Shown here one piece after another: positions 31,852-41,448 of a stretch of 52,666 nucleotides of DNA. Position numbers and translations under genes: made by a program. The stretch covers positions 1 through 52,666 of the forward strand of contig JALGVA010000014.1 in assembly GCA_029820295.1 (NCBI GenBank). The letters are read 5' to 3'. How positions within the stretch are numbered: the first letter of the stretch is position 1; each line of letters starts with the position of its first letter. The DNA is from Candidatus Zipacnadia bacterium (lineage in GTDB: Bacteria; Armatimonadota; Zipacnadia; Zipacnadales; UBA5352). The notes under the pieces were generated by a model. The model had not been told where the DNA came from. It saw only the letters and a program-made list of their open reading frames with translations, and made no database searches.

Positions 31852-31931
31852 CGCCACTGCCGTGGGGACGTTGTGCAGTCGCACCTGCGTGCAGATCGGG
31901 GCGTCACCAGACGGGCAGCGAGGTGGAGACT

Positions 31932-32960
31932 GTGAGCGAGATCCGCCGCTTCGGAGTCATCGGCACCGGCGTGTGGGGCGAGACCCACCTGATGACCTAC
32001 TCGACGCACCGCGGCGCCGAGCTGGCGTGCATCTGCGACCTTAATGAGGACCTGCTGAGACAGCGTGCCGAGCAGTTCGGCGTCTCCTGCTGGACCACCG
32101 ACTACGAAGAGCTGCTCGCCGACGATGACATCGACGCCGTCTCCGTCGTGACCCCCGACTTCCTGCACCGCGAGATCGCCGTCGCCGCCGCCGAGGCCGG
32201 CAAGCACGTGCTCCTCGAGAAGCCCATGGCCACCACGGTCGAGGACTGCCGGGCGATGATCGACGCGGCCGCGGCCAGCGGCGTCAAGCTCATGGTGGAC
32301 TTCCACAACCGCTGGAATCCGGCGATGTGGGGCATCAAGCAGAAGGTCGTCGCCGGCGAGCTGGGCGACCCGCAGATGCTCACCGTGCGCCTCAACGACA
32401 CCATCTACGTGCCCACCGAGATGCTCAGTTGGGCCGGCCGCTCCACGGTCATCTGGTTCCTGGGCAGCCACTCGGTGGACCTGGTGCGCTGGCTGTTCGA
32501 TGATGAGGTGTCGCGCGTCTACTCGGTGTCGCGCTCGCGCGTGCTCACCGGCATGGGCGTGGACACGCCGGACTTCTTCCTGACCATCGTCGAACTTGAG
32601 GGCGGCGGCGTGGCGCATATCGAGAACTGCTGGATCATGTCCACCTCCATGCCCACGGTCTTCGACTTCAAGCTCGAGATGATCGGCTCCGAAGGCACCT
32701 GCTTCGCCGACTGCAGCTCCCACCGGATGCTGCAGACCTTCACACCCGAGGGGCCGTCCTACCCGGATGTCGCGGTGCGCACCGAGGTCCAGGGCGTGCC
32801 GGCCGGCTTCGGCGTGCACAGCATCAGGCACTTTGCCGACTGCGTGATCCACGACCTTGAGCCGGCGGTGAGTGTTGCCGATGGCCTTGAGAACACACGC
32901 GTCCTTGTCGCCATCCACGAGTCCGCGCAGAGCGGGCAGCCGGTTGAGGTGCAGCGCTAG
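31932..32960 (+). CDS. Gfo/Idh/MocA family dehydrogenase
   Basis: This 342-residue oxidoreductase has a Rossmann motif (FGVIGTGVWGETHL), a cofactor-adjacent EKP motif (VLLEKPMATTVEDC) and a substrate-domain signature (FLGSHSVDLVRWLFDDEV). The GTG at 31932 is taken as start because GAGGTGG lies 5 bases upstream and the protein then begins directly at the first strand; an in-frame GTG at 31923 lies inside that site. The strongest promoter in the window precedes it. The next gene downstream is a sugar isomerase-like protein, so both may act on one carbohydrate (inositol or a rare sugar). Substrate is not determinable. Confidence 0.88.
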   Translation: MSEIRRFGVIGTGVWGETHLMTYSTHRGAELACICDLNEDLLRQRAEQFGVSCWTTDYEELLADDDIDAVSVVTPDFLHREIAVAAAEAGKHVLLEKPMATTVEDCRAMIDAAAASGVKLMVDFHNRWNPAMWGIKQKVVAGELGDPQMLTVRLNDTIYVPTEMLSWAGRSTVIWFLGSHSVDLVRWLFDDEVSRVYSVSRSRVLTGMGVDTPDFFLTIVELEGGGVAHIENCWIMSTSMPTVFDFKLEMIGSEGTCFADCSSHRMLQTFTPEGPSYPDVAVRTEVQGVPAGFGVHSIRHFADCVIHDLEPAVSVADGLENTRVLVAIHESAQSGQPVEVQR

Positions 32961-33079: not shown

Positions 33080-33862
33080 ATGAAGACGGCGCTGTGCACC
33101 ATCGCCTTCCGCGAACGCCTGCTCGAGTACAGCCTCGACATCGCGTGCGAGGCGGGGCTCGATGGCGTGGAGATCTGGGGCCGCGAGCCACACATCTCGG
33201 AGGAGTACGACGCCAACCGCGTGGCCGCCGCGCGCAAGATGGTGGTCGAGCGCGGGCTGCAGGTGGCGGTGTTCGGCTCGTACCTGCGCTTCGGCGCGGT
33301 GGAGAACGACAACATATCGCTGCGCGACGTGCTGCAGATCGCGGCCGGCCTGGAGGCGCCCGTGGTGCGCGTGTGGGCCGGTGACGTAGGCTCGGACGAG
33401 GCCGACGACGAGCTGTGGAAGCGCACCGTGCACGAGTGTCACGAGGCCGCGGTGGCCGCCGCCAAGATGGGCATGAAGCTGGCCGCCGAGATGCACTCCA
33501 ATACCCTCGCCGACACAGGCCCGTGCGCCCGCCGCCTCGTTGAGGACGTCGGCCACGAGAGCTTCGGCCTCAACTACCAGGCCTCCTCGAAGCTTGACGA
33601 TGACGATCCTCTCGAACGTCTCGAGTTCGCCCTGCCCCATGTCTTCCATCTGCACGCACAGAACTACGCCCCGCTCAACGGCGACCCCGAGCGCATCGAG
33701 CGCGTTGGCCTTGCAGATGGCGTCATCGACTACGCGCCGCTGGTGAGCCGCCTGCGCGAGGTCGGCTACGATGGCTACCTGGCGATCGAGTTCAGCCCGT
33801 CCAACTGTGAGAGCAAGCGCGACGCCATCATCCGCGACGCTCATTACCTGCGAAGCCTGTGA
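33080..33862 (+). CDS. sugar phosphate isomerase/epimerase (xylose isomerase-like TIM barrel)
   Basis: This protein of about 260 residues is of the AP-endonuclease-2/xylose-isomerase TIM-barrel family. It has a typical opening (MKTALCTIAFRERLLEYSLD, then AGLDGVEIWGRE), PVVRVWAGDVG, LAAEMHSNTLADTG (Glu and His ligands), HVFHLHAQNYAPLN and YDGYLAIEFSPSN (late Glu ligand). It would isomerise or epimerise a sugar in the cytoplasm, which fits the Gfo/Idh gene 120 bases upstream. The start is uncertain: the ATG at 33080 gives the family-like N-terminus but has no good ribosome binding site, while longer frames reach 32966. Its TGA overlaps the GTG of the CXXC micro-protein. Confidence 0.8.
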   Translation: MKTALCTIAFRERLLEYSLDIACEAGLDGVEIWGREPHISEEYDANRVAAARKMVVERGLQVAVFGSYLRFGAVENDNISLRDVLQIAAGLEAPVVRVWAGDVGSDEADDELWKRTVHECHEAAVAAAKMGMKLAAEMHSNTLADTGPCARRLVEDVGHESFGLNYQASSKLDDDDPLERLEFALPHVFHLHAQNYAPLNGDPERIERVGLADGVIDYAPLVSRLREVGYDGYLAIEFSPSNCESKRDAIIRDAHYLRSL

Positions 33863-34005
33863 CCGTGAGAGCGATGCGCTGGCTCTGGCTGCCACTGGCC
33901 CTGCTGGGCATCGCACTGCTGGTCTACGGTGCGTGGACCGGTCAGATCGATGCGGTGATCAGGCACGCGAAGACCCTGTGCACCGCCTGCATCGGCCTGG
34001 GGTGA
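33859..34005 (+). CDS. CD1871A-like CXXC micro-protein with one membrane helix
   Basis: This 48-residue protein starts at a GTG whose bases overlap the previous stop (GTGA); an internal ATG at 33874 could also serve. It has one hydrophobic helix (WLWLPLALLGIALLVYGAW) and ends in QIDAVIRHAKTLCTACIGLG, with a CXXC pair (C41/C44) four residues from the terminus. This layout is the same as the CD1871A-type CXXC micro-proteins found next to 4Fe-4S polyferredoxin genes. The polyferredoxin gene here starts 9 bases downstream. It could deliver electrons or thiols to, or assemble with, that protein; no function has been shown for the family as far as I know. Confidence 0.78.
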   Translation: MTVRAMRWLWLPLALLGIALLVYGAWTGQIDAVIRHAKTLCTACIGLG

Positions 34006-34014
34006 GGCGTGGCC

Positions 34015-34878
34015 ATGGCAGAGGGCAAGCGTCCGGCCTTCCCCGGCTATTTGCGTTTCCGCCGCTACGTGCAACTCGCCCTGGTCTTCCTGCTCAACGC
34101 CCGCTTCAGCGGCGGCTTCCTCTATGACCTGCGTGGCGTGTGCTTCCCGGCGCTGAACTGCTGGGCCTGCCCCACCGCCGCGGTGGGGTGCCCGATGGGC
34201 GCGCTCCAGAACGCCATCGGGGATATGCGGGCGGTGTTCATCCTGCCGCTCTACATCCTCGGCTCGCTCATTGCCGTGAGCGCCGTGATCGGCCGGTCGA
34301 TGTGCGGTTGGCTGTGCCCGTTCGGGCTTCTGCAGGACCTGCTGGCGCGCGCGCGCCGCCGCCACGCCGAGCTGCCCCCGTGGACCGGATACATCAAGTA
34401 CGCGCTGCTGGTGGGCCTGGGCATCATCCTGCCCTGGCTGACGGGCGTGCCGTGGTTCTGCAAGTTCTGTCCGCAGGGCGCGCTGCAGGGGGGCATCTTC
34501 CAGCCGCTGCTCTACCCCGACCTGCGCCCACTGATCCACGAGTGGTGGTTCCTCAAGATCGGCATCCTGGTCGCCTTCGTGGTCGCCTCGGTGTTCATTC
34601 GCCGCCCGTTCTGCCGCTCGTTCTGCGCGCTGGGCGCGCTGTTCTCGCTCTTCAGCCGCGTCAGCCTGGTGCGCATGTACTACGACCGCGAGGCCTGCAC
34701 CGACTGCATGTGGTGTGTCCGCGCCTGTCCGGCCGGCATCGACCCGCGCCGCGAGCTGTCGGGCATGAACTGTGTGAGCTGCATGGAGTGCGCGAAGTGC
34801 CCGTTCGGCGCGATCCACGTCGAGACCGCGTTCTCGCGGCGGGTCGCCGCGCCCGGCGATGAGGGGGAGGGCGCATGA
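34015..34878 (+). CDS. membrane polyferredoxin (NapH/CcoG-like 4Fe-4S protein)
   Basis: This 287-residue protein has about four to five membrane helices and several Cys clusters. The N-terminal part has CWACPTAAVGCPMGA, then CGWLCPFGLLQDLLAR and CKFCPQGALQGG, the CxxxCP motifs of NapH/RdxA-type proteins. The C-terminal domain has two 4Fe-4S ferredoxin motifs (CTDCMWCVRACPAG and CVSCMECAKCPFGA). It should pass electrons between the quinone pool and a partner at the membrane. No nitrate reductase or cytochrome gene is near. ATG at 34015 has GGTGAGG 7 bases upstream. The CXXC micro-protein precedes it and a small kinase overlaps its stop (ATGA). Confidence 0.88.
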   Translation: MAEGKRPAFPGYLRFRRYVQLALVFLLNARFSGGFLYDLRGVCFPALNCWACPTAAVGCPMGALQNAIGDMRAVFILPLYILGSLIAVSAVIGRSMCGWLCPFGLLQDLLARARRRHAELPPWTGYIKYALLVGLGIILPWLTGVPWFCKFCPQGALQGGIFQPLLYPDLRPLIHEWWFLKIGILVAFVVASVFIRRPFCRSFCALGALFSLFSRVSLVRMYYDREACTDCMWCVRACPAGIDPRRELSGMNCVSCMECAKCPFGAIHVETAFSRRVAAPGDEGEGA

Positions 34879-35579
34879 GCGGCCCGGGATGGGACGATCT
34901 CACCGCGGAGGACGTGGATCGGCTGACCACGCAGGTGCTGCGCCACGGCTCGCGTGCGCGGCCCGAGCTGCGCCGCATCCGCCTCGGCGGCGTGGACGCG
35001 GTGGTCAAGGACTACGGCCGACGCGGTACGATCTTCAAGCGCCTGCTGGGCGCGTGGCTGGCGCGCCGCGAGGCGGCGGCGCTGCGCCGCGCCGAGGGGG
35101 TGTCCTGCGTCCCGCGCATCCTGGGCCGACCTCAGCCGTGGACGATCATCACCGAGTTCGTGGACGCCACGCCCGTAGCCAGGCTGCAGGCCCCGCAGCT
35201 CGACGCGGCCTTCTTCGCGTGCCTCACCGACCTCATAGTCGCCCTGCACGAGCGCGGCATCGCCCACGGCGACCTCGAGCACCTCGACAACATCCTGGTC
35301 ACGCCCGAAATGCAGCCGGCGGTGGTTGACTTCGCCGCCGCCGTCATGACCGGCAGTAATCCGCTCGCCGCCTTCGCCTGGCCCTACGTGGCCGACAACG
35401 ACTTCCGCGCCATCTGCAAGCTCAAGGCTCAGCACGCCCCCGAGCTGCTCAGCGAGGACGACCGCTGCACGCTGGAGCGCCGCAGCGCCGCCGAGACGTG
35501 GTTCCGGCGCGCCCGGCGCTATGTCCGCGGGCCGGTCAAGGCGCTCGCCACCGATTCCGACGAGGACGCGCGATCATGA
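34875..35579 (+). CDS. small RIO/Kdo-kinase-like protein kinase
   Basis: This 234-residue protein has a minimal kinase fold: RLGGVDAVVKDYG (ATP-binding Lys), FVDATPVARL (hinge), the catalytic loop HERGIAHGDLEHLDNILV with an intact HGD Asp and Asn, and the metal-binding Asp in PAVVDFAAAVM. The HGDL...DN form is that of RIO, lipopolysaccharide (Kdo/WaaP) and related atypical kinases. The target is unknown; a lipid, sugar or protein substrate is possible. Its ATG overlaps the polyferredoxin stop (ATGA), and its own TGA overlaps the start of a 32-codon frame. Placement between redox proteins and an ECF sigma factor suggests a regulatory or envelope role (inference). Confidence 0.82.
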   Translation: MSGPGWDDLTAEDVDRLTTQVLRHGSRARPELRRIRLGGVDAVVKDYGRRGTIFKRLLGAWLARREAAALRRAEGVSCVPRILGRPQPWTIITEFVDATPVARLQAPQLDAAFFACLTDLIVALHERGIAHGDLEHLDNILVTPEMQPAVVDFAAAVMTGSNPLAAFAWPYVADNDFRAICKLKAQHAPELLSEDDRCTLERRSAAETWFRRARRYVRGPVKALATDSDEDARS

Positions 35580-35674
35580 CCCTCTCCGAGTGCCTCGGGA
35601 ACCGCGCCGCCGCCGCGGGACGTTATCACCATCGACGGCGCGCGCGCGCCGTCCACGGGGAGCCCCCCCGATGA
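35576..35674 (+). CDS. possible 32-residue coupling peptide
   Basis: An ATG overlapping the kinase stop opens a 32-codon frame (MTLSECLGNRAAAAGRYHHR, then a basic tail) whose TGA overlaps the ATG of the ECF sigma gene. It would bridge two genes by ATGA overlaps at both ends. The peptide is basic and low-complexity, so it may be only a translational relay or chance. Confidence 0.3.
   Translation: MTLSECLGNRAAAAGRYHHRRRARAVHGEPPR
35597..35625 (+). promoter_or_regulatory. possible ECF-type promoter before the sigma gene
   Basis: GGGAAC (35597-35602), an 18-base spacer and CGTTA (35621-35625) match the GGAAC/CGTT pattern of many ECF sigma factors. It lies about 45 bases upstream of the sigma gene, as expected for autoregulation. 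No -10 TATAAT competes. Confidence 0.4.
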
Positions 35675-36249
35675 CGCTCAGGTTGATCGGCTCAGCTCGG
35701 GATGGCGGCACGCGCCGCCGCGAGTTCGAGGAACTCGCCCGCAAGCACGAGCGCGACATCTTCAACGCCGCCCTGCGCATGGCCGGCAACTACGCCGACG
35801 CCGAGGACGTGGCGCAGGAGGCGCTGGTCAAGGCGTACAACGCCTTCGATCAGTTCGAGCTGGGCACGAACTTCCGGGCGTGGATCCTGCGCATCGTGAC
35901 CAACACGTACATCAACGAGTTCCGCAGGCGGCGGCGCGCGCCTGACACGACTACGTGGGATGACCTGCCGCGCGAGGAGCTGGGCAAGCTTGCGCGCGAC
36001 GAGGAGGACAGTCCTGAGCTGGCGGCGCTGGCCGGAGCCATCGACGCCGAGGTCGAGCAGGCACTGAGCGAGATCCCGGAGGTGTTCCGCGAGGCCGTGG
36101 TGTTGTGCGACATGCACGGGATGGCCTACGGCGACATCGCCGATGCGCTGGGCGTGCCGATCGGCACGGTACGCTCACGCATCGCGCGGGGCAGGGGGCT
36201 CCTGCAGGGCAAGCTCGAAGCGTACGCACGGTCGCGAGGGTTGATCTGA
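35671..36249 (+). CDS. ECF-family RNA polymerase sigma factor
   Basis: This 192-residue protein has sigma region 2 (FEELARKHERDIFNAALRMA, then NYADAEDVAQEALVKAYNAF and NFRAWILRIVTNTYINEFRR) and region 4 (ALSEIPEVFREAVVLCDMHG, then YGDIADALGVPIGTVRSRIA). It should redirect RNA polymerase to a small regulon. The ATG at 35671 has GGGGAG 8 bases upstream. The zinc-finger anti-sigma gene starts 2 bases after its stop, the classical pairing for a membrane-controlled switch. A GGAAC-N18-CGTT candidate upstream suggests self-activation. Confidence 0.93.
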   Translation: MTLRLIGSARDGGTRRREFEELARKHERDIFNAALRMAGNYADAEDVAQEALVKAYNAFDQFELGTNFRAWILRIVTNTYINEFRRRRRAPDTTTWDDLPREELGKLARDEEDSPELAALAGAIDAEVEQALSEIPEVFREAVVLCDMHGMAYGDIADALGVPIGTVRSRIARGRGLLQGKLEAYARSRGLI

Positions 36250-36251
36250 CC

Positions 36252-37019
36252 ATGGCAACGGGTTGCGAGCAGACGACCGAGGCGCTGTCCGCGCTGGTGG
36301 ACGGCGAACTGGACGACGACCGCCGCAAGGTGCTCGCCGCGCACATCCTCACCTGCCCGGAGTGCAGCCGCATGACGGGCGCGCTGATGGCCGCCAAGCG
36401 CGTCACCCAGCGCGCGTCCGCGTCCGTCGAGGTGCCCGCCGGCTTCCACGCGCGACTGCGCGCGCGCCTGGATCAGGTCGATGGCGTACGCTCGCGCGTC
36501 GCCGCCTCCCGGCCCGCCCGCCGGCTGGTGGGCATCGCCGCCATGGGCGCGATCGCCGTCAGCATCGCCATCATCTTCAGCACGGTCTACCTCATCAACG
36601 CCGACCGCGCGCTGGCGCTGGCGCAGGCGCATCAGCAGTTCGCAGCGATCATCGCCGGTCCGCCCTCTCCGGGCTCACTCTCCATGGTCTCCTGTGATCC
36701 CGACACGCAATCCTGGATCCCCGTGCGCCATGCGCTGGTGCGCCTTGACGGCACGGTCGTGCAGTACACCCTCTACCAGGTCGGCGGCTGCGCGGTCTCG
36801 ATCTTTGAGGGACCGGCGGAGTGGCACCCCTACCGCACCGGCTGGCTGGTCAGCGAGCGCGTCGGCGAGTTTGACGTGCGCCGCGTCGGCGATCAGGCTA
36901 TGACCACGGTGCGCAGGGGCGCGTCGCGAGACGTCATCGTCGCCGCCGTGCCTCCCGAGCATCTCGTCGCCTTCGCCCGCGCCTGGCGCCTCCAGCCGGG
37001 AAGGTCTTCGGGGCTCTGA
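36252..37019 (+). CDS. zinc-finger anti-sigma factor, membrane-spanning
   Basis: This 255-residue protein has a zinc-binding anti-sigma domain at the N-terminus with H31, C35 and C38 (AAHILTCPECSRM). It has one membrane helix (about 92-115, LVGIAAMGAIAVSIAIIFST) and an extracytoplasmic strand-rich domain (about 120-255) with Cys154 and Cys182 (VSCDPDTQ, VGGCAVSIFEG). It should hold the adjacent ECF sigma factor until an envelope signal releases it. The extracytoplasmic Cys pair could form a disulphide; with a redox-like gene next to it, the signal may be redox, but that is inference. It starts 2 bases after the sigma stop. Confidence 0.88.
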   Translation: MATGCEQTTEALSALVDGELDDDRRKVLAAHILTCPECSRMTGALMAAKRVTQRASASVEVPAGFHARLRARLDQVDGVRSRVAASRPARRLVGIAAMGAIAVSIAIIFSTVYLINADRALALAQAHQQFAAIIAGPPSPGSLSMVSCDPDTQSWIPVRHALVRLDGTVVQYTLYQVGGCAVSIFEGPAEWHPYRTGWLVSERVGEFDVRRVGDQAMTTVRRGASRDVIVAAVPPEHLVAFARAWRLQPGRSSGL

Positions 37020-37066
37020 GGCGAACCTGCCCCGCGCGGGACCATCCTGAGCCGGAGGTGGTGCTG

Positions 37067-37702
37067 GTGAGAGCTGTGGCCGTCATCCTCGCACTGCTGG
37101 TCGTCGGGTCGGCGGCCTGTCCGCAGGACGAAGGCGTGCGCCGGCCGCTCGCGCCGGGCGTGGCCGCCCCCGACTTCACCGCCAACACCCTCGATGGCGC
37201 CACCATCAAGCTCACCGACTGGCGCGGCAAGGTGGTCGTGCTCAACTTCTTCGTCACCTGGTACCGCGATGCCGCGCAGCACCTCAAGATGCTTGAGGAC
37301 CTGAGCACCGCCTTCAGCGAGCAGGGCATGCGCCTGGTCTCCATCTCGCTCGACGAGGGACAGGTCGGCCTGGACGCGGTGCGCGCGGTCATCGCCGACC
37401 AGGGCATCGCCCACCCGGTGATCATGGACCCGGCCCAGCAGATCGCCGCCCCCTACGGCGTGCGCGTCCTGCCCGCGATCTTCATTATCGGGCGCGACGG
37501 GGTCATCGCCAACTACCACGAGGGCTACGCCGAGGGCGATGACGAGCGCCTGGGTGAGCTGATCGCCGCGGCGCTGCAGGTCGGGACCGAAGCCGGGCCA
37601 TCGGCCGAGACGGAGGCCGAAGCCGAGCCGGCGGCCGGGCCGGAGGAGCCCGCGCCGCCCGAGGAGCCGGTATGCAAGTGCTTCCGGCAGGAGGCCGAGT
37701 AA
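37067..37702 (+). CDS. thioredoxin-fold lipoprotein lacking the CXXC active site
   Basis: This protein of about 211 residues is probably a lipoprotein (signal VAVILALLVVGSAAC, Cys18). It has an AhpC/TlpA-type thioredoxin fold: PDFTANTLDGATIKLTDWRG, VVVLNFFVTW and GVRVLPAIFIIGRDG with the cis-Pro. Where TlpA has WCPPC, this protein has W65-Y-R-D-A, so both catalytic Cys are gone and redox activity is not expected. The C-terminus is acidic and Pro-rich and ends in PVCKCFRQEAE, a possible secondary CxC site. GTG at 37067 has GGAGG 8 bases upstream; GTGs at 37058 and 37061 lie inside that site. It follows the anti-sigma gene by 47 bases. Confidence 0.82.
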   Translation: MRAVAVILALLVVGSAACPQDEGVRRPLAPGVAAPDFTANTLDGATIKLTDWRGKVVVLNFFVTWYRDAAQHLKMLEDLSTAFSEQGMRLVSISLDEGQVGLDAVRAVIADQGIAHPVIMDPAQQIAAPYGVRVLPAIFIIGRDGVIANYHEGYAEGDDERLGELIAAALQVGTEAGPSAETEAEAEPAAGPEEPAPPEEPVCKCFRQEAE

Positions 37703-37816
37703 CGACGCGGCACCGGCGGGCGGGTACGGAGACCACGCCGGCGGCGGCCCCGGCAGCACGGGAACGCCGCCGCTTCGACTTGCGGGCGCGCCGTGCGCCC
37801 GGAGAGGAGCATTGAG

Positions 37817-39211
37817 GTGCGGCCACTGGCCTGTGTGATCCTGGCGGCCGGGCAGGGCACGCGCATGAAGTCCGAGCTGCCCAAGCCGCTGCACGAGGTG
37901 TGCGGGCGGCCGATGATCGACCACGTGCTCGCCACCATCGAGCAGCTCGGGGCCGAGCGCACCGTGGTGGTTGTCGGCGCGGGAGCCGAGCGGCTGGTCG
38001 CAGCGCTGGGCGAGGGCGTCGTCGCCTGCGAGCAGCCCGAGCAGCTCGGTACCGGCCACGCCGCCATCTGCGCCCGCCCCGGCCTTGACGGCTTCACGGG
38101 CGATGTCCTCATCACCTACGCCGACATCCCGCTCGTGACCACCGACACTCTGCGCCGGCTCACCGAGCACCACCGCGCCGAGGGCGCCGCCGCCACCGTG
38201 CTGACCACCGAGCTGCCCGACCCCACCGGCTACGGGCGCATCATCCGCGACGGCACGGGCGCGGTGGCCGCCATCGTGGAGCAGCGCGACGCCAGCGCCG
38301 AGCAGCGCGCCATCCGGGAGATCAACACGGGCATCTACCTCTTCGACTCCGAGGCGCTGCTCTCGGCCCTCGACCGCATCAGCCCCGACAATGACCAGGG
38401 CGAGTACTATCTGACCGATGCCATCGCCATCCTGGTGGGCGACGGCCGGCCGGTGCGCGCACTCATCACCGATGATCCCGACGAGGTCATGGGCATCAAC
38501 ACCCGCGTGCAGCTCGCGCAGGCCGAGCGCATCGCCCGCGATCGCATCCGCGAGCAGGTCATGCTGGCGGGCGCCACGCTCATCGACCCGCCCTCGACCC
38601 TCATCGACGCGGGCGTGACCATCGGCCCGGACACGATCATCGGCCACGGCTGCCAGCTCCTGGGCGCCACCGCCATCGGCGCGGGCTGCGAGATCCGCTC
38701 CGGCGTGGTGCTGCGCTCGGCGACCATCGGCGATCGCGTGCTGCTGCGCGATCACACGGTCATCGACGAGGGCACCGTGCTCGACGGCTCGGAGGTCGGG
38801 CCGTTCGCGCTGGTGCGGGGGGGCAGCGTGGTTGGCCGCGACTGCAAGATGGGCAGCTCGGCGGAGATCAACCGCACGCGCATGGGCGATGGTACCAAGA
38901 TGCAGCACTTCTCCTACCTGGGCGACACCACCACCGGCCGCGACTGCAACATCGGCGCGGGCGTCATCACCTGCAACTATGACGGCTACGACAAGCACCC
39001 GACGGTCATCGAGGACAACGTCTTCATCGGCAGCGACAGCATCCTCATCGCGCCGGTCACCATCGGCGCAGGTGCGTACACCGGCGCGGGCTCGGTGATC
39101 ACCGGGGACGTGCCCGCGGGTGCGCTGGCCGTGGCGCGGGCCAGGCAGAAGAACATCGAGGGCTGGGCGGAGCGGCGGCGCAGGCAAATCGAGAGGCGTG
39201 AGCGGCAGTGA
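37817..39211 (+). CDS. glmU: bifunctional GlmU (UDP-N-acetylglucosamine pyrophosphorylase/acetyltransferase)
   Basis: This 464-residue enzyme makes UDP-GlcNAc for peptidoglycan and LPS. The N-terminal uridyltransferase domain has ILAAGQGTRMKSELPKPLHE, LGTGHAAICARPGL, YADIPLV and ELPDPTGYGRIIRD. The C-terminal left-handed beta-helix has IGPDTIIGHGCQLLG repeats, then the acetyltransferase block MQHFSYLGDTTTG (catalytic His), IGAGVITCNYDGYDKH and VIEDNVFIGSD. It starts at GTG with GAGAGGAG 7-8 bases upstream. Length and motifs are standard. Its stop overlaps the GTG of the following Gfo/Idh gene (GTGA). Confidence 0.95.
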   Translation: MRPLACVILAAGQGTRMKSELPKPLHEVCGRPMIDHVLATIEQLGAERTVVVVGAGAERLVAALGEGVVACEQPEQLGTGHAAICARPGLDGFTGDVLITYADIPLVTTDTLRRLTEHHRAEGAAATVLTTELPDPTGYGRIIRDGTGAVAAIVEQRDASAEQRAIREINTGIYLFDSEALLSALDRISPDNDQGEYYLTDAIAILVGDGRPVRALITDDPDEVMGINTRVQLAQAERIARDRIREQVMLAGATLIDPPSTLIDAGVTIGPDTIIGHGCQLLGATAIGAGCEIRSGVVLRSATIGDRVLLRDHTVIDEGTVLDGSEVGPFALVRGGSVVGRDCKMGSSAEINRTRMGDGTKMQHFSYLGDTTTGRDCNIGAGVITCNYDGYDKHPTVIEDNVFIGSDSILIAPVTIGAGAYTGAGSVITGDVPAGALAVARARQKNIEGWAERRRRQIERRERQ

Positions 39212-40319: not shown

Positions 40320-40901
40320 ATGGCGGACGACCAGCCTACTTCGCCGCCTCACCCTCAGCCTCACCCGCCCAATGCGGGGAAGGACTGGCGTCAGCACTTG
40401 CGCTCCTGCCTCATCATGCTCGGCCTGACCCTCGTCGTGCTGGTGGGCCTCGGCGTCGGCGCGCGCCTGTGGGCAGACTGGGTGTGGTCGCAGCATCGCG
40501 CGGAGATCCGCGAGAGCCTCCCCCGGGTCGAGCCGCTGCTGACCGCGCTGGAGATGTACCGCAAGGACTACGACGCGTATCCGGCCACCCTCACGCAGCT
40601 CACGCCGAAGTACATGGACGTGATCCCGGAGCCGCCGTTCGAGTTCAAGGCGCAGTGGGGGTGGGAGTACAGCGCCGACCCAGAGATGGTCACAGGCTGG
40701 ATAGACGCCGCCCTCGCGAATGAGGGGTTCGTGACGCCTCCGGGCATCTACCACCTCTACGTGACCGTGCCCAGCCACTACTCCCCGCTCCGCGGCCTAT
40801 TCCAGGACCGCCTCGTCTACCGTCCGGATGAGCGCTATCCTGCGGTCGCCTACGGCGGCGTCCTCGAGCGCATCGACGGCTGGGGCTACTACCATGAGTG
40901 A
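40320..40901 (+). CDS. single-pass membrane protein with pseudopilin-G-like periplasmic segment
   Basis: This 193-residue protein starts at an ATG with GAGGGGG 7 bases upstream. A Pro/His-rich cytoplasmic tail (TSPPHPQPHPPN) is followed by one membrane helix (LIMLGLTLVVLVGLGVGARL). After the helix, VEPLLTALEMYRKDYDAYPATL and LTPKYMDVIPEPP resemble the LxxYKxDxGxYPxxxxxL pattern of type II secretion pseudopilins, but there is no GFTLIE cleavage motif, so it would not be processed by prepilin peptidase. The next gene is a paralogue and overlaps it by 8 bases. Function unknown. Confidence 0.7.
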   Translation: MADDQPTSPPHPQPHPPNAGKDWRQHLRSCLIMLGLTLVVLVGLGVGARLWADWVWSQHRAEIRESLPRVEPLLTALEMYRKDYDAYPATLTQLTPKYMDVIPEPPFEFKAQWGWEYSADPEMVTGWIDAALANEGFVTPPGIYHLYVTVPSHYSPLRGLFQDRLVYRPDERYPAVAYGGVLERIDGWGYYHE

Positions 40902-41448
40902 GCCGAGGCAGAGCGGGCGGCGGCAGCGGCTGGCGACCGCCGCAACGATGGTCTTCCTGGCGGCGCTGCTGCTGGTGGGCCTGCCCTGGCTCATCTGGTG
41001 GCAGATGACCGCGAAGTTCGTGCGCGCGTGGGAGCAGGAGAAGCGGCCGGCGCTCGCCGCCGCCGCCGAGGCCGCGCAGCCGCTCATCGATGCCCTCGGG
41101 CGCTACCGGGCCGACCACGGCCGCTACCCCGATGAGCTTGAGGCGCTGGTGCCGGAGTACCTCGGTCGCGTGCCCGCGCCTCAACGTCCGCTCCGTGATC
41201 CGTGGTGGTACGGGCCGCTGGAGGAGGGGCGCGAGTTCTACCTCTTCGCCCATCCCCCCCAGAACTACTACGGCGTGCCCATCCAGGCGCCGACCGATGC
41301 CGAGCAGCTTGTCTACCAGTCCGACGGGCGCTACGAGCACGATCCGTGGGATCTCGCCGCCGGCGCGCGGAGAGAGCGCGAGCCCCTCGATCGCATCGGC
41401 GCGTGGGCCTACTACGCCCACTCGTCCACTCCGCCGCGAAGGGATTGA
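40894..41448 (+). CDS. paralogous single-pass membrane protein with pseudopilin-G-like segment
   Basis: This 184-residue paralogue of the preceding gene has one membrane helix (MVFLAALLLVGLPWLIWW) and the same segment: AQPLIDALGRYRADHGRYPD, then LVPEYLGRVPAPQ, with Tyr-rich ends (FYLFAHPPQNYYGVP, GAWAYYAH). The ATG at 40894 overlaps the upstream stop by 8 bases (ATGAGTGA), so translation is coupled. Both proteins lack a prepilin cleavage motif. They may form a pair on the periplasmic side of the membrane; the function is not recognised. Confidence 0.7.
   Translation: MSEPRQSGRRQRLATAATMVFLAALLLVGLPWLIWWQMTAKFVRAWEQEKRPALAAAAEAAQPLIDALGRYRADHGRYPDELEALVPEYLGRVPAPQRPLRDPWWYGPLEEGREFYLFAHPPQNYYGVPIQAPTDAEQLVYQSDGRYEHDPWDLAAGARREREPLDRIGAWAYYAHSSTPPRRD

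Follow-up and report, generated by a model that had tools for sequence, protein, structure and literature searches.

Analyzed here is a 52,666-nucleotide stretch of DNA (the window), contig C220 in a metagenome-assembled genome (5.6 Mb) of Candidatus Zipacnadia bacterium. It carries a compact run of six genes that we read, with a probability of roughly 0.6, as two separable functional units lying side by side: an electron-transfer pair widespread in anaerobes, made of a CD1871A-type CXXC mini-protein and a membrane polyferredoxin, and an autoregulated switch built on an extracytoplasmic function (ECF) sigma factor. Members of the class Zipacnadia, which was described from marine sediment, were inferred to live anaerobically by fermentation or acetogenesis (PMC10290634). 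All six open reading frames (ORFs) of the run are present with overlaps or short gaps, and domain scans backed each identity assigned in a preliminary description of this DNA, which had proposed a redox-sensing envelope system. The neighbourhood is real and old, yet it consists of two units and not of one proven redox sensor.

The locus was compared with genomes of the same order (41) and phylum (251); the phylum sample was searched with kinase, CD1871A and polyferredoxin profiles, and 56 neighbourhoods were annotated with profiles built for this analysis. The kinase, ECF and anti-sigma genes recurred with the CD1871A pair across the order. Within the family, the genes follow the order Gfo/Idh/MocA oxidoreductase, isomerase, CD1871A, polyferredoxin, kinase, ECF, anti-sigma, TlpA-like, GlmU and a second Gfo/Idh/MocA-like gene, and this order is kept across six genera wherever contigs permit, the exception being genome G002, in which the TlpA-like gene is relocated. 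Full-length orthologs of the anti-sigma factor and the kinase were found in 10/10 family genomes, and the tight gaps and overlaps of the run are preserved among orthologs. The same order in family genomes showed that conservation of the run is not confined to one genome. Noting that the conserved block is wider than six genes, beginning at the Gfo/Idh/MocA gene (31923) and reaching GlmU and the second Gfo/Idh/MocA-like gene (40104) or beyond, and that it includes housekeeping genes, we regard synteny inside one family as weak evidence for function.

The two parts of the run were gained or lost independently. Genomes G067, G091, G115, G127 and G213 have isomerase, kinase, ECF, anti-sigma and GlmU genes in this order, with CD1871A and the polyferredoxin missing at that spot; G084, G121 and G196 have CD1871A, polyferredoxin, ECF and anti-sigma with the kinase missing; and G132 and G137 have CD1871A and the polyferredoxin located apart from the other genes. 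Only kinase, ECF, anti-sigma and GlmU are found in the class-level genome G193 (locus L126). CD1871A and the polyferredoxin, which share one contig in all 31 of the 31 phylum genomes with a solid CD1871A match, act as one cassette, and the kinase, ECF and anti-sigma genes act as another. The TlpA-like gene of the CXXC-less type was found in one family only.

An electron-transfer membrane pair had been proposed from the sequence, and domain scans confirmed it as a CD1871A-type mini-protein with a NapH-like polyferredoxin. The mini-protein aligned over its full length with NF040920 at 28.3 bits, under the curated cut-off of 32, and is thus a sub-threshold relative; it has the hallmarks of the type, being short, ending in CXXC-[IV]-G and lying beside a 4Fe-4S protein, and the CXXC is present in 28/28 CD1871A orthologs. 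CD1871A as a name was not found in the literature searched. The polyferredoxin resembles the NapH/MauN membrane ferredoxin family in its best NCBIfam match (napH_, 63.8 bits), but it differs from that family in scoring far under the model cut-off of 213 and in having a membrane part that matched no solved structure. Foldseek with a structure model of the natural polyferredoxin-CD1871A fusion described below returned mainly ferredoxin-domain matches, none with E below 0.001. The host genome encodes a second NapH-like polyferredoxin (L151, C122:11819-12550), without CD1871A or TlpA nearby. Like CcdA/DsbD thiol-reducing systems, the pair is proposed to bring reducing power through the membrane and deliver it to TlpA-type proteins; unlike them, it would do so with an Fe-S polyferredoxin and a mini CXXC protein and not with the DsbD_TM family. 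That the pair replaces CcdA/DsbD was rejected as a simple rule, since DsbD_TM was found in 29/41 order genomes, including that of the host.

The polyferredoxin profile was then scanned against 84,980 species genomes, and the best 80 of 565 matches were kept. These 80 loci are mostly from Clostridia, and also from Treponema, Stahlbacteria, Desulfobulbaceae and others; without the two Zipacnadia loci, 78 remained. The profile was built from Zipacnadia, and the percentages therefore apply to near relatives of this polyferredoxin and not to NapH-like proteins at large. Outside the class, 75/78 loci have CD1871A beside the polyferredoxin and 63/78 have a TlpA-like gene no more than 1.2 kb away; in one locus only it lies farther off (562 kb of flanking sequence scanned), and the kinase and the anti-sigma factor were each found in 0/78. 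The module is carried, for instance, by C. tetanomorphum DSM 4474 (locus L224). Among the partner proteins listed for the scanned loci, those of TlpA type carry CXXC, the exceptions being a short fragment and the protein from Zipacnadia. Natural fusions join the polyferredoxin to CD1871A (L194; NF040920 at 37.4 bits, over the cut-off of 32) or to a TlpA domain (L177, L222 and L236). CTECIGLG tails of CD1871A type also end larger Clostridia proteins with a multi-transmembrane look beside polyferredoxins (L177:5118-5939, L222:5074-5940, L233:4961-5926 and L236:4696-5559).

An operon of three proteins (4Fe-4S, TlpA and CxxC) in gut Clostridia has been suggested to reduce surface targets (PMC12637426, a 2025 preprint), and the CD1871A-polyferredoxin-TlpA association is partly prior art through that preprint. 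As in that operon, the CxxC mini-protein of the window adjoins a membrane 4Fe-4S protein, with a TlpA-like protein in the neighbourhood. Here, however, the three genes are not all within about 1 kb: the TlpA-like gene begins about 2.2 kb past the polyferredoxin gene, three genes downstream and behind an ECF promoter, with the kinase and the ECF unit intervening, and its CXXC-less product is confined to one family. In the rest of the order, no TlpA-like gene was found close to the pair.

The ECF sigma factor has Sigma70 region 2 and region 4_2, and the best of all models for it was SigR/SigH (TIGR02947), with 168.5 bits against a cut-off of 251.55. A promoter of the form GGAAC-N18-CGTT had been guessed for it; the motif lies between the kinase and ECF genes, and ortholog conservation beyond chance strongly supported the guess. 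GGAAC-N14..20-CGT[TCA] occurred in 24/32 ECF upstream regions (shuffle mean 0.97, maximum 4), or 23 as the safer count, as the truncated locus L039 has a distant match; the spacer is 18 nucleotides long in nearly all orthologs and variable in sequence. Only base composition was preserved in the shuffles, and genomes that are related do not count as independent cases; neighbouring gaps in the same genomes are the stronger control: with N17-18, the motif was found before the ECF gene in 23/31 cases, before CD1871A in 2/28, and before none of eight other block genes. GGAAC-N18-CGTT has a single exact match in the whole window. At L060 and L124, a GGAAC-N17/18-CGT[TC] match precedes the CD1871A gene, for which chance and a link between cassette and switch are both possible.

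With a stricter pattern, ten genomes gave 27 matches (control, 0 to 1 per strand per genome), ten of which are the ECF promoter. Another site that recurs is found 5' of an unlinked gene whose product is an exported, His-rich, CXXC-less protein; there the motif precedes 9/20 homologs (shuffle mean 0.03) and 6/7 within the family. This protein matched no Pfam family, and the best solved-structure matches of its profile, with non-significant E-values, were mostly thioredoxin-fold proteins; it probably has a thioredoxin fold. Nothing redox-related was recognized by eye in the surroundings of this second target. These results suggest that the ECF switch would control a small autoregulated regulon, with the sigma factor presumably recognizing the conserved motif. 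The second-target family comprises exported, often His-rich proteins of ~200 aa (L259:1581-2207 in host contig C167, L277, L266, L281 and L286-L300), and several relatives outside the family have one isolated Cys close to where the thioredoxin active site would be and another Cys within a GCExGLxxNG loop.

The cytoplasmic part of the anti-sigma factor has RsrA, RsiW and ChrR as its closest solved structures. Its zinc ligands, C-x25-H-x3-C-x2-C, are all cytoplasmic (C5 in 29/31 orthologs; H31, C35 and C38 in 31/31), and their spacing is identical to that of RsrA, whose ligands are C11, H37, C41 and C44 (PMC4960319), although the score against the RsrA equivalog (39.3 bits) did not reach the cut-off of 62.5. 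Such a conserved motif makes thiol sensing possible; it is insufficient as proof, because roughly one in two membrane-bound class I anti-sigma factors bears it, possibly in a structural role (PMC7406223). Two extracytoplasmic Cys residues pointed out in the preliminary description are present in the window copy, but only 6/31 and 9/31 orthologs share them, and we rejected them as a conserved sensor, the conserved Cys/His set being cytoplasmic. His127, extracytoplasmic and soon after the transmembrane (TM) segment, is invariant in 31/31 orthologs.

For the predicted extracytoplasmic domain, several RseB/MucB entries stood near the top of the structural matches, and it aligned with the RseB/MucB C-terminal domain at Z 7.4 (rmsd 2.9, 84 aa, 21% identity), Z values near 7-8 being within the background of the tool. 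RseB homology was not accepted on this structural hint alone, as hhalign against Escherichia coli RseB with 22 decoys gave a probability of 0.16%, no better than the decoys, and Pfam/NCBIfam scans of the anti-sigma factor gave no RseB family match. The two proteins resemble the SigR-RsrA pair in zinc-ligand spacing, in a GGAA-type -35 element with a long spacer, and in the autoregulation suggested by promoter position. They differ from it in that the anti-sigma factor is membrane anchored with an extracytoplasmic domain, both score under the SigH_actino and RsrA cut-offs, and thiol sensing is only putative here.

The TlpA-like protein keeps a ResA-like fold by sequence, as had been described, including the cis-Pro region (LPAIF) of ResA/TlpA oxidoreductases; it differs from them in the loss of both active-site Cys residues and the addition of an invariant C-terminal CxCF. 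Throughout the family, WCxxC is replaced by WYRDA or a close variant, with no CXXC at the site in nine aligned members nor in G002, and the CxCF (9/9), which had escaped the earlier description, is preceded by a low-complexity linker. This protein could bind a partner, or could use the CxCF tail as a thiol pair. The claim that it is a lipoprotein was dropped: the window copy reads SAAC, and its possible lipobox Cys is not shared by orthologs.

The kinase is intact and atypical, as first described, and RIO/PRK12274-like, its catalytic residues K45 (Lys), E66 (Glu), H131 and D133 (the HxD motif), N139 (Asn) and D152 (metal-binding Asp) each being kept in 32/32 orthologs. At 74.6 bits against a cut-off of 372, it is a relative and not a member of PRK12274. 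In other classes, two loci were read, and in both the kinase gene lies elsewhere, in unrelated surroundings that share no partner; none was found in viral contigs. The kinase probably phosphorylates a partner from either unit. The interval between the kinase and ECF genes is longer by about 0.85-0.9 kb in two related genomes (L106 and L113).

Table 1. Features of the conserved block, with positions in the window
Feature	Position	Strand	Evidence
Gfo/Idh/MocA oxidoreductase, upstream end of conserved block	31923..32960	+	Pfam PF01408; family synteny
Xylose-isomerase-like TIM barrel (AP_endonuc_2), directly 5' of CD1871A gene	33080..33862	+	Pfam PF01261; syntenic
CD1871A-type 48-aa single-TM protein, C-terminal LCTACIGLG (CXXC)	33859..34005	+	NF040920 28.3 bits; CXXC 28/28 orthologs
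NapH-like membrane polyferredoxin, 289 aa	34009..34878	+	Fer4_5, NapH family; adjoins CD1871A across phyla
Small RIO/PRK12274-like protein kinase, 234 aa; ATGA overlap with polyferredoxin gene	34875..35579	+	RIO1, PRK12274; catalytic residues 32/32
ECF-type promoter GGAAC-N18-CGTT of sigma gene	35598-35624	+	Conserved upstream in 24/32; specific to that gap; sole exact match in window
ECF sigma factor	35671..36249	+	Sigma70_r2/r4_2; SigH_actino 168.5 bits, cut-off 251.55
Membrane anti-sigma factor, RsrA-spaced zinc motif C5-H31-C35-C38, predicted beta-rich extracytoplasmic domain	36252..37019	+	zf-HC2; RsrA best solved relative
Exported TlpA/ResA-like protein with YRDA at the CXXC site and CKCF at the C terminus	37058..37702	+	AhpC-TSA 1.6e-22; ResA 2.5e-24; alignment
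GlmU-like uridylyltransferase, downstream neighbour with class-level conservation	37793..39211	+	NTP transferase and hexapeptide domains

As summarized in Table 1, the run lies within a longer block of genes. Two short ORFs that resemble each other (193 and 206 aa; 40320-41448) lie next to one another 3' of the block and are present in some relatives.

In the reading that we favour, CD1871A and the polyferredoxin, tightly spaced and perhaps co-transcribed with the upstream isomerase and the kinase, would be the membrane component of a system common among anaerobes. Electrons would most likely pass from cytoplasmic ferredoxin-level donors through the Fe-S clusters to the CD1871A CXXC, placed on the outer membrane face, and then most likely to extracytoplasmic TlpA-type thiol-disulfide proteins. 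The ECF sigma factor, the zinc-motif membrane anti-sigma factor and the CXXC-less TlpA-like protein would constitute an autoregulated stress switch, in which some signal frees the sigma factor to drive its own operon from GGAAC-N18-CGTT as well as the second, unlinked gene. It is possible that the switch reads the redox state set by the pair.

Several observations weigh against this reading. The CD1871A tail was left unplaced (pLDDT about 50-60) in the structure model of the natural polyferredoxin-CD1871A fusion. The host genome encodes a CcdA/DsbD-type protein, and the pair is not the sole candidate electron route. As the family TlpA-like protein has no CXXC, the standard acceptor step is inapplicable to it, leaving the C-terminal CxCF as the sole candidate. 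The TlpA-like gene of G002 lies outside the block; that it is still under an ECF promoter was considered and rejected, with no ECF-type motif at the new site. Moreover, synteny extends to GlmU and sugar-metabolism genes without an obvious link, and the neighbourhood alone may overstate the coupling.

Of the redox-sensing envelope system in the preliminary description, the recurrence across the order stood and the zinc motif leaves thiol sensing possible, while coupling into a single system was supported only in part. Such a system, with an envelope thiol state that is set by the pair and read out by the anti-sigma factor and the CXXC-less thioredoxin, appears quite unlikely to us, even though most of the family retains the full six-gene order, the anti-sigma zinc ligands match the redox-sensing type, and both putative sigma targets resemble exported thioredoxin-fold proteins. 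Against it, the pair and the kinase/ECF/anti-sigma genes were gained or lost independently, the ECF gene has its own promoter, and the pair and the switch showed no association in the 78 loci outside the class; the poorly conserved extracytoplasmic Cys residues and the commonness of a possibly structural zinc motif (PMC7406223) also count against it.

A general envelope or cell-wall stress, sensed through the extracytoplasmic domain and relayed by regulated proteolysis with the zinc structural and redox irrelevant, is a possible if tentative account. It draws on the RseB/MucB alignment and on GlmU, a wall-precursor enzyme, as a class-level neighbour; that alignment, however, has a Z within the background range of the tool and gained no support from hhalign or Pfam, and the strict conservation of C5 with H31, C35 and C38 leaves a thiol role possible. 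Slow rearrangement alone, with unrelated neighbours held by descent and no functional link between any units, would fit the retention of housekeeping and sugar genes in the same block and the unrelated surroundings of the kinase in the two loci read from other classes. We consider it unlikely, since the kinase-ECF-anti-sigma-GlmU order persists to class level, tight gaps and overlaps are kept, and the CD1871A/polyferredoxin pair is linked across phyla.

Going further than two units side by side, the pair could be an Fe-S-driven transmembrane thiol-reducing conduit parallel to CcdA/DsbD, the neighbouring ECF/zinc-anti-sigma switch of Zipacnadia could read the envelope thiol state so set, and the two outputs could be exported CXXC-less thioredoxin-fold binders or sensors rather than oxidoreductases, a combination that we hold to be rather improbable as a whole. 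If the conduit exists, many anaerobes would supply envelope thiols via Fe-S clusters, alongside or instead of CcdA/DsbD, and the gut-Clostridia operon, which a preprint has tied to patient outcome, would acquire a biochemical role open to testing. The CXXC-less targets pose the question of what role a thioredoxin fold has after loss of its catalytic Cys residues, and the conserved ECF promoter is a direct handle on the stress switch in this uncultured class.

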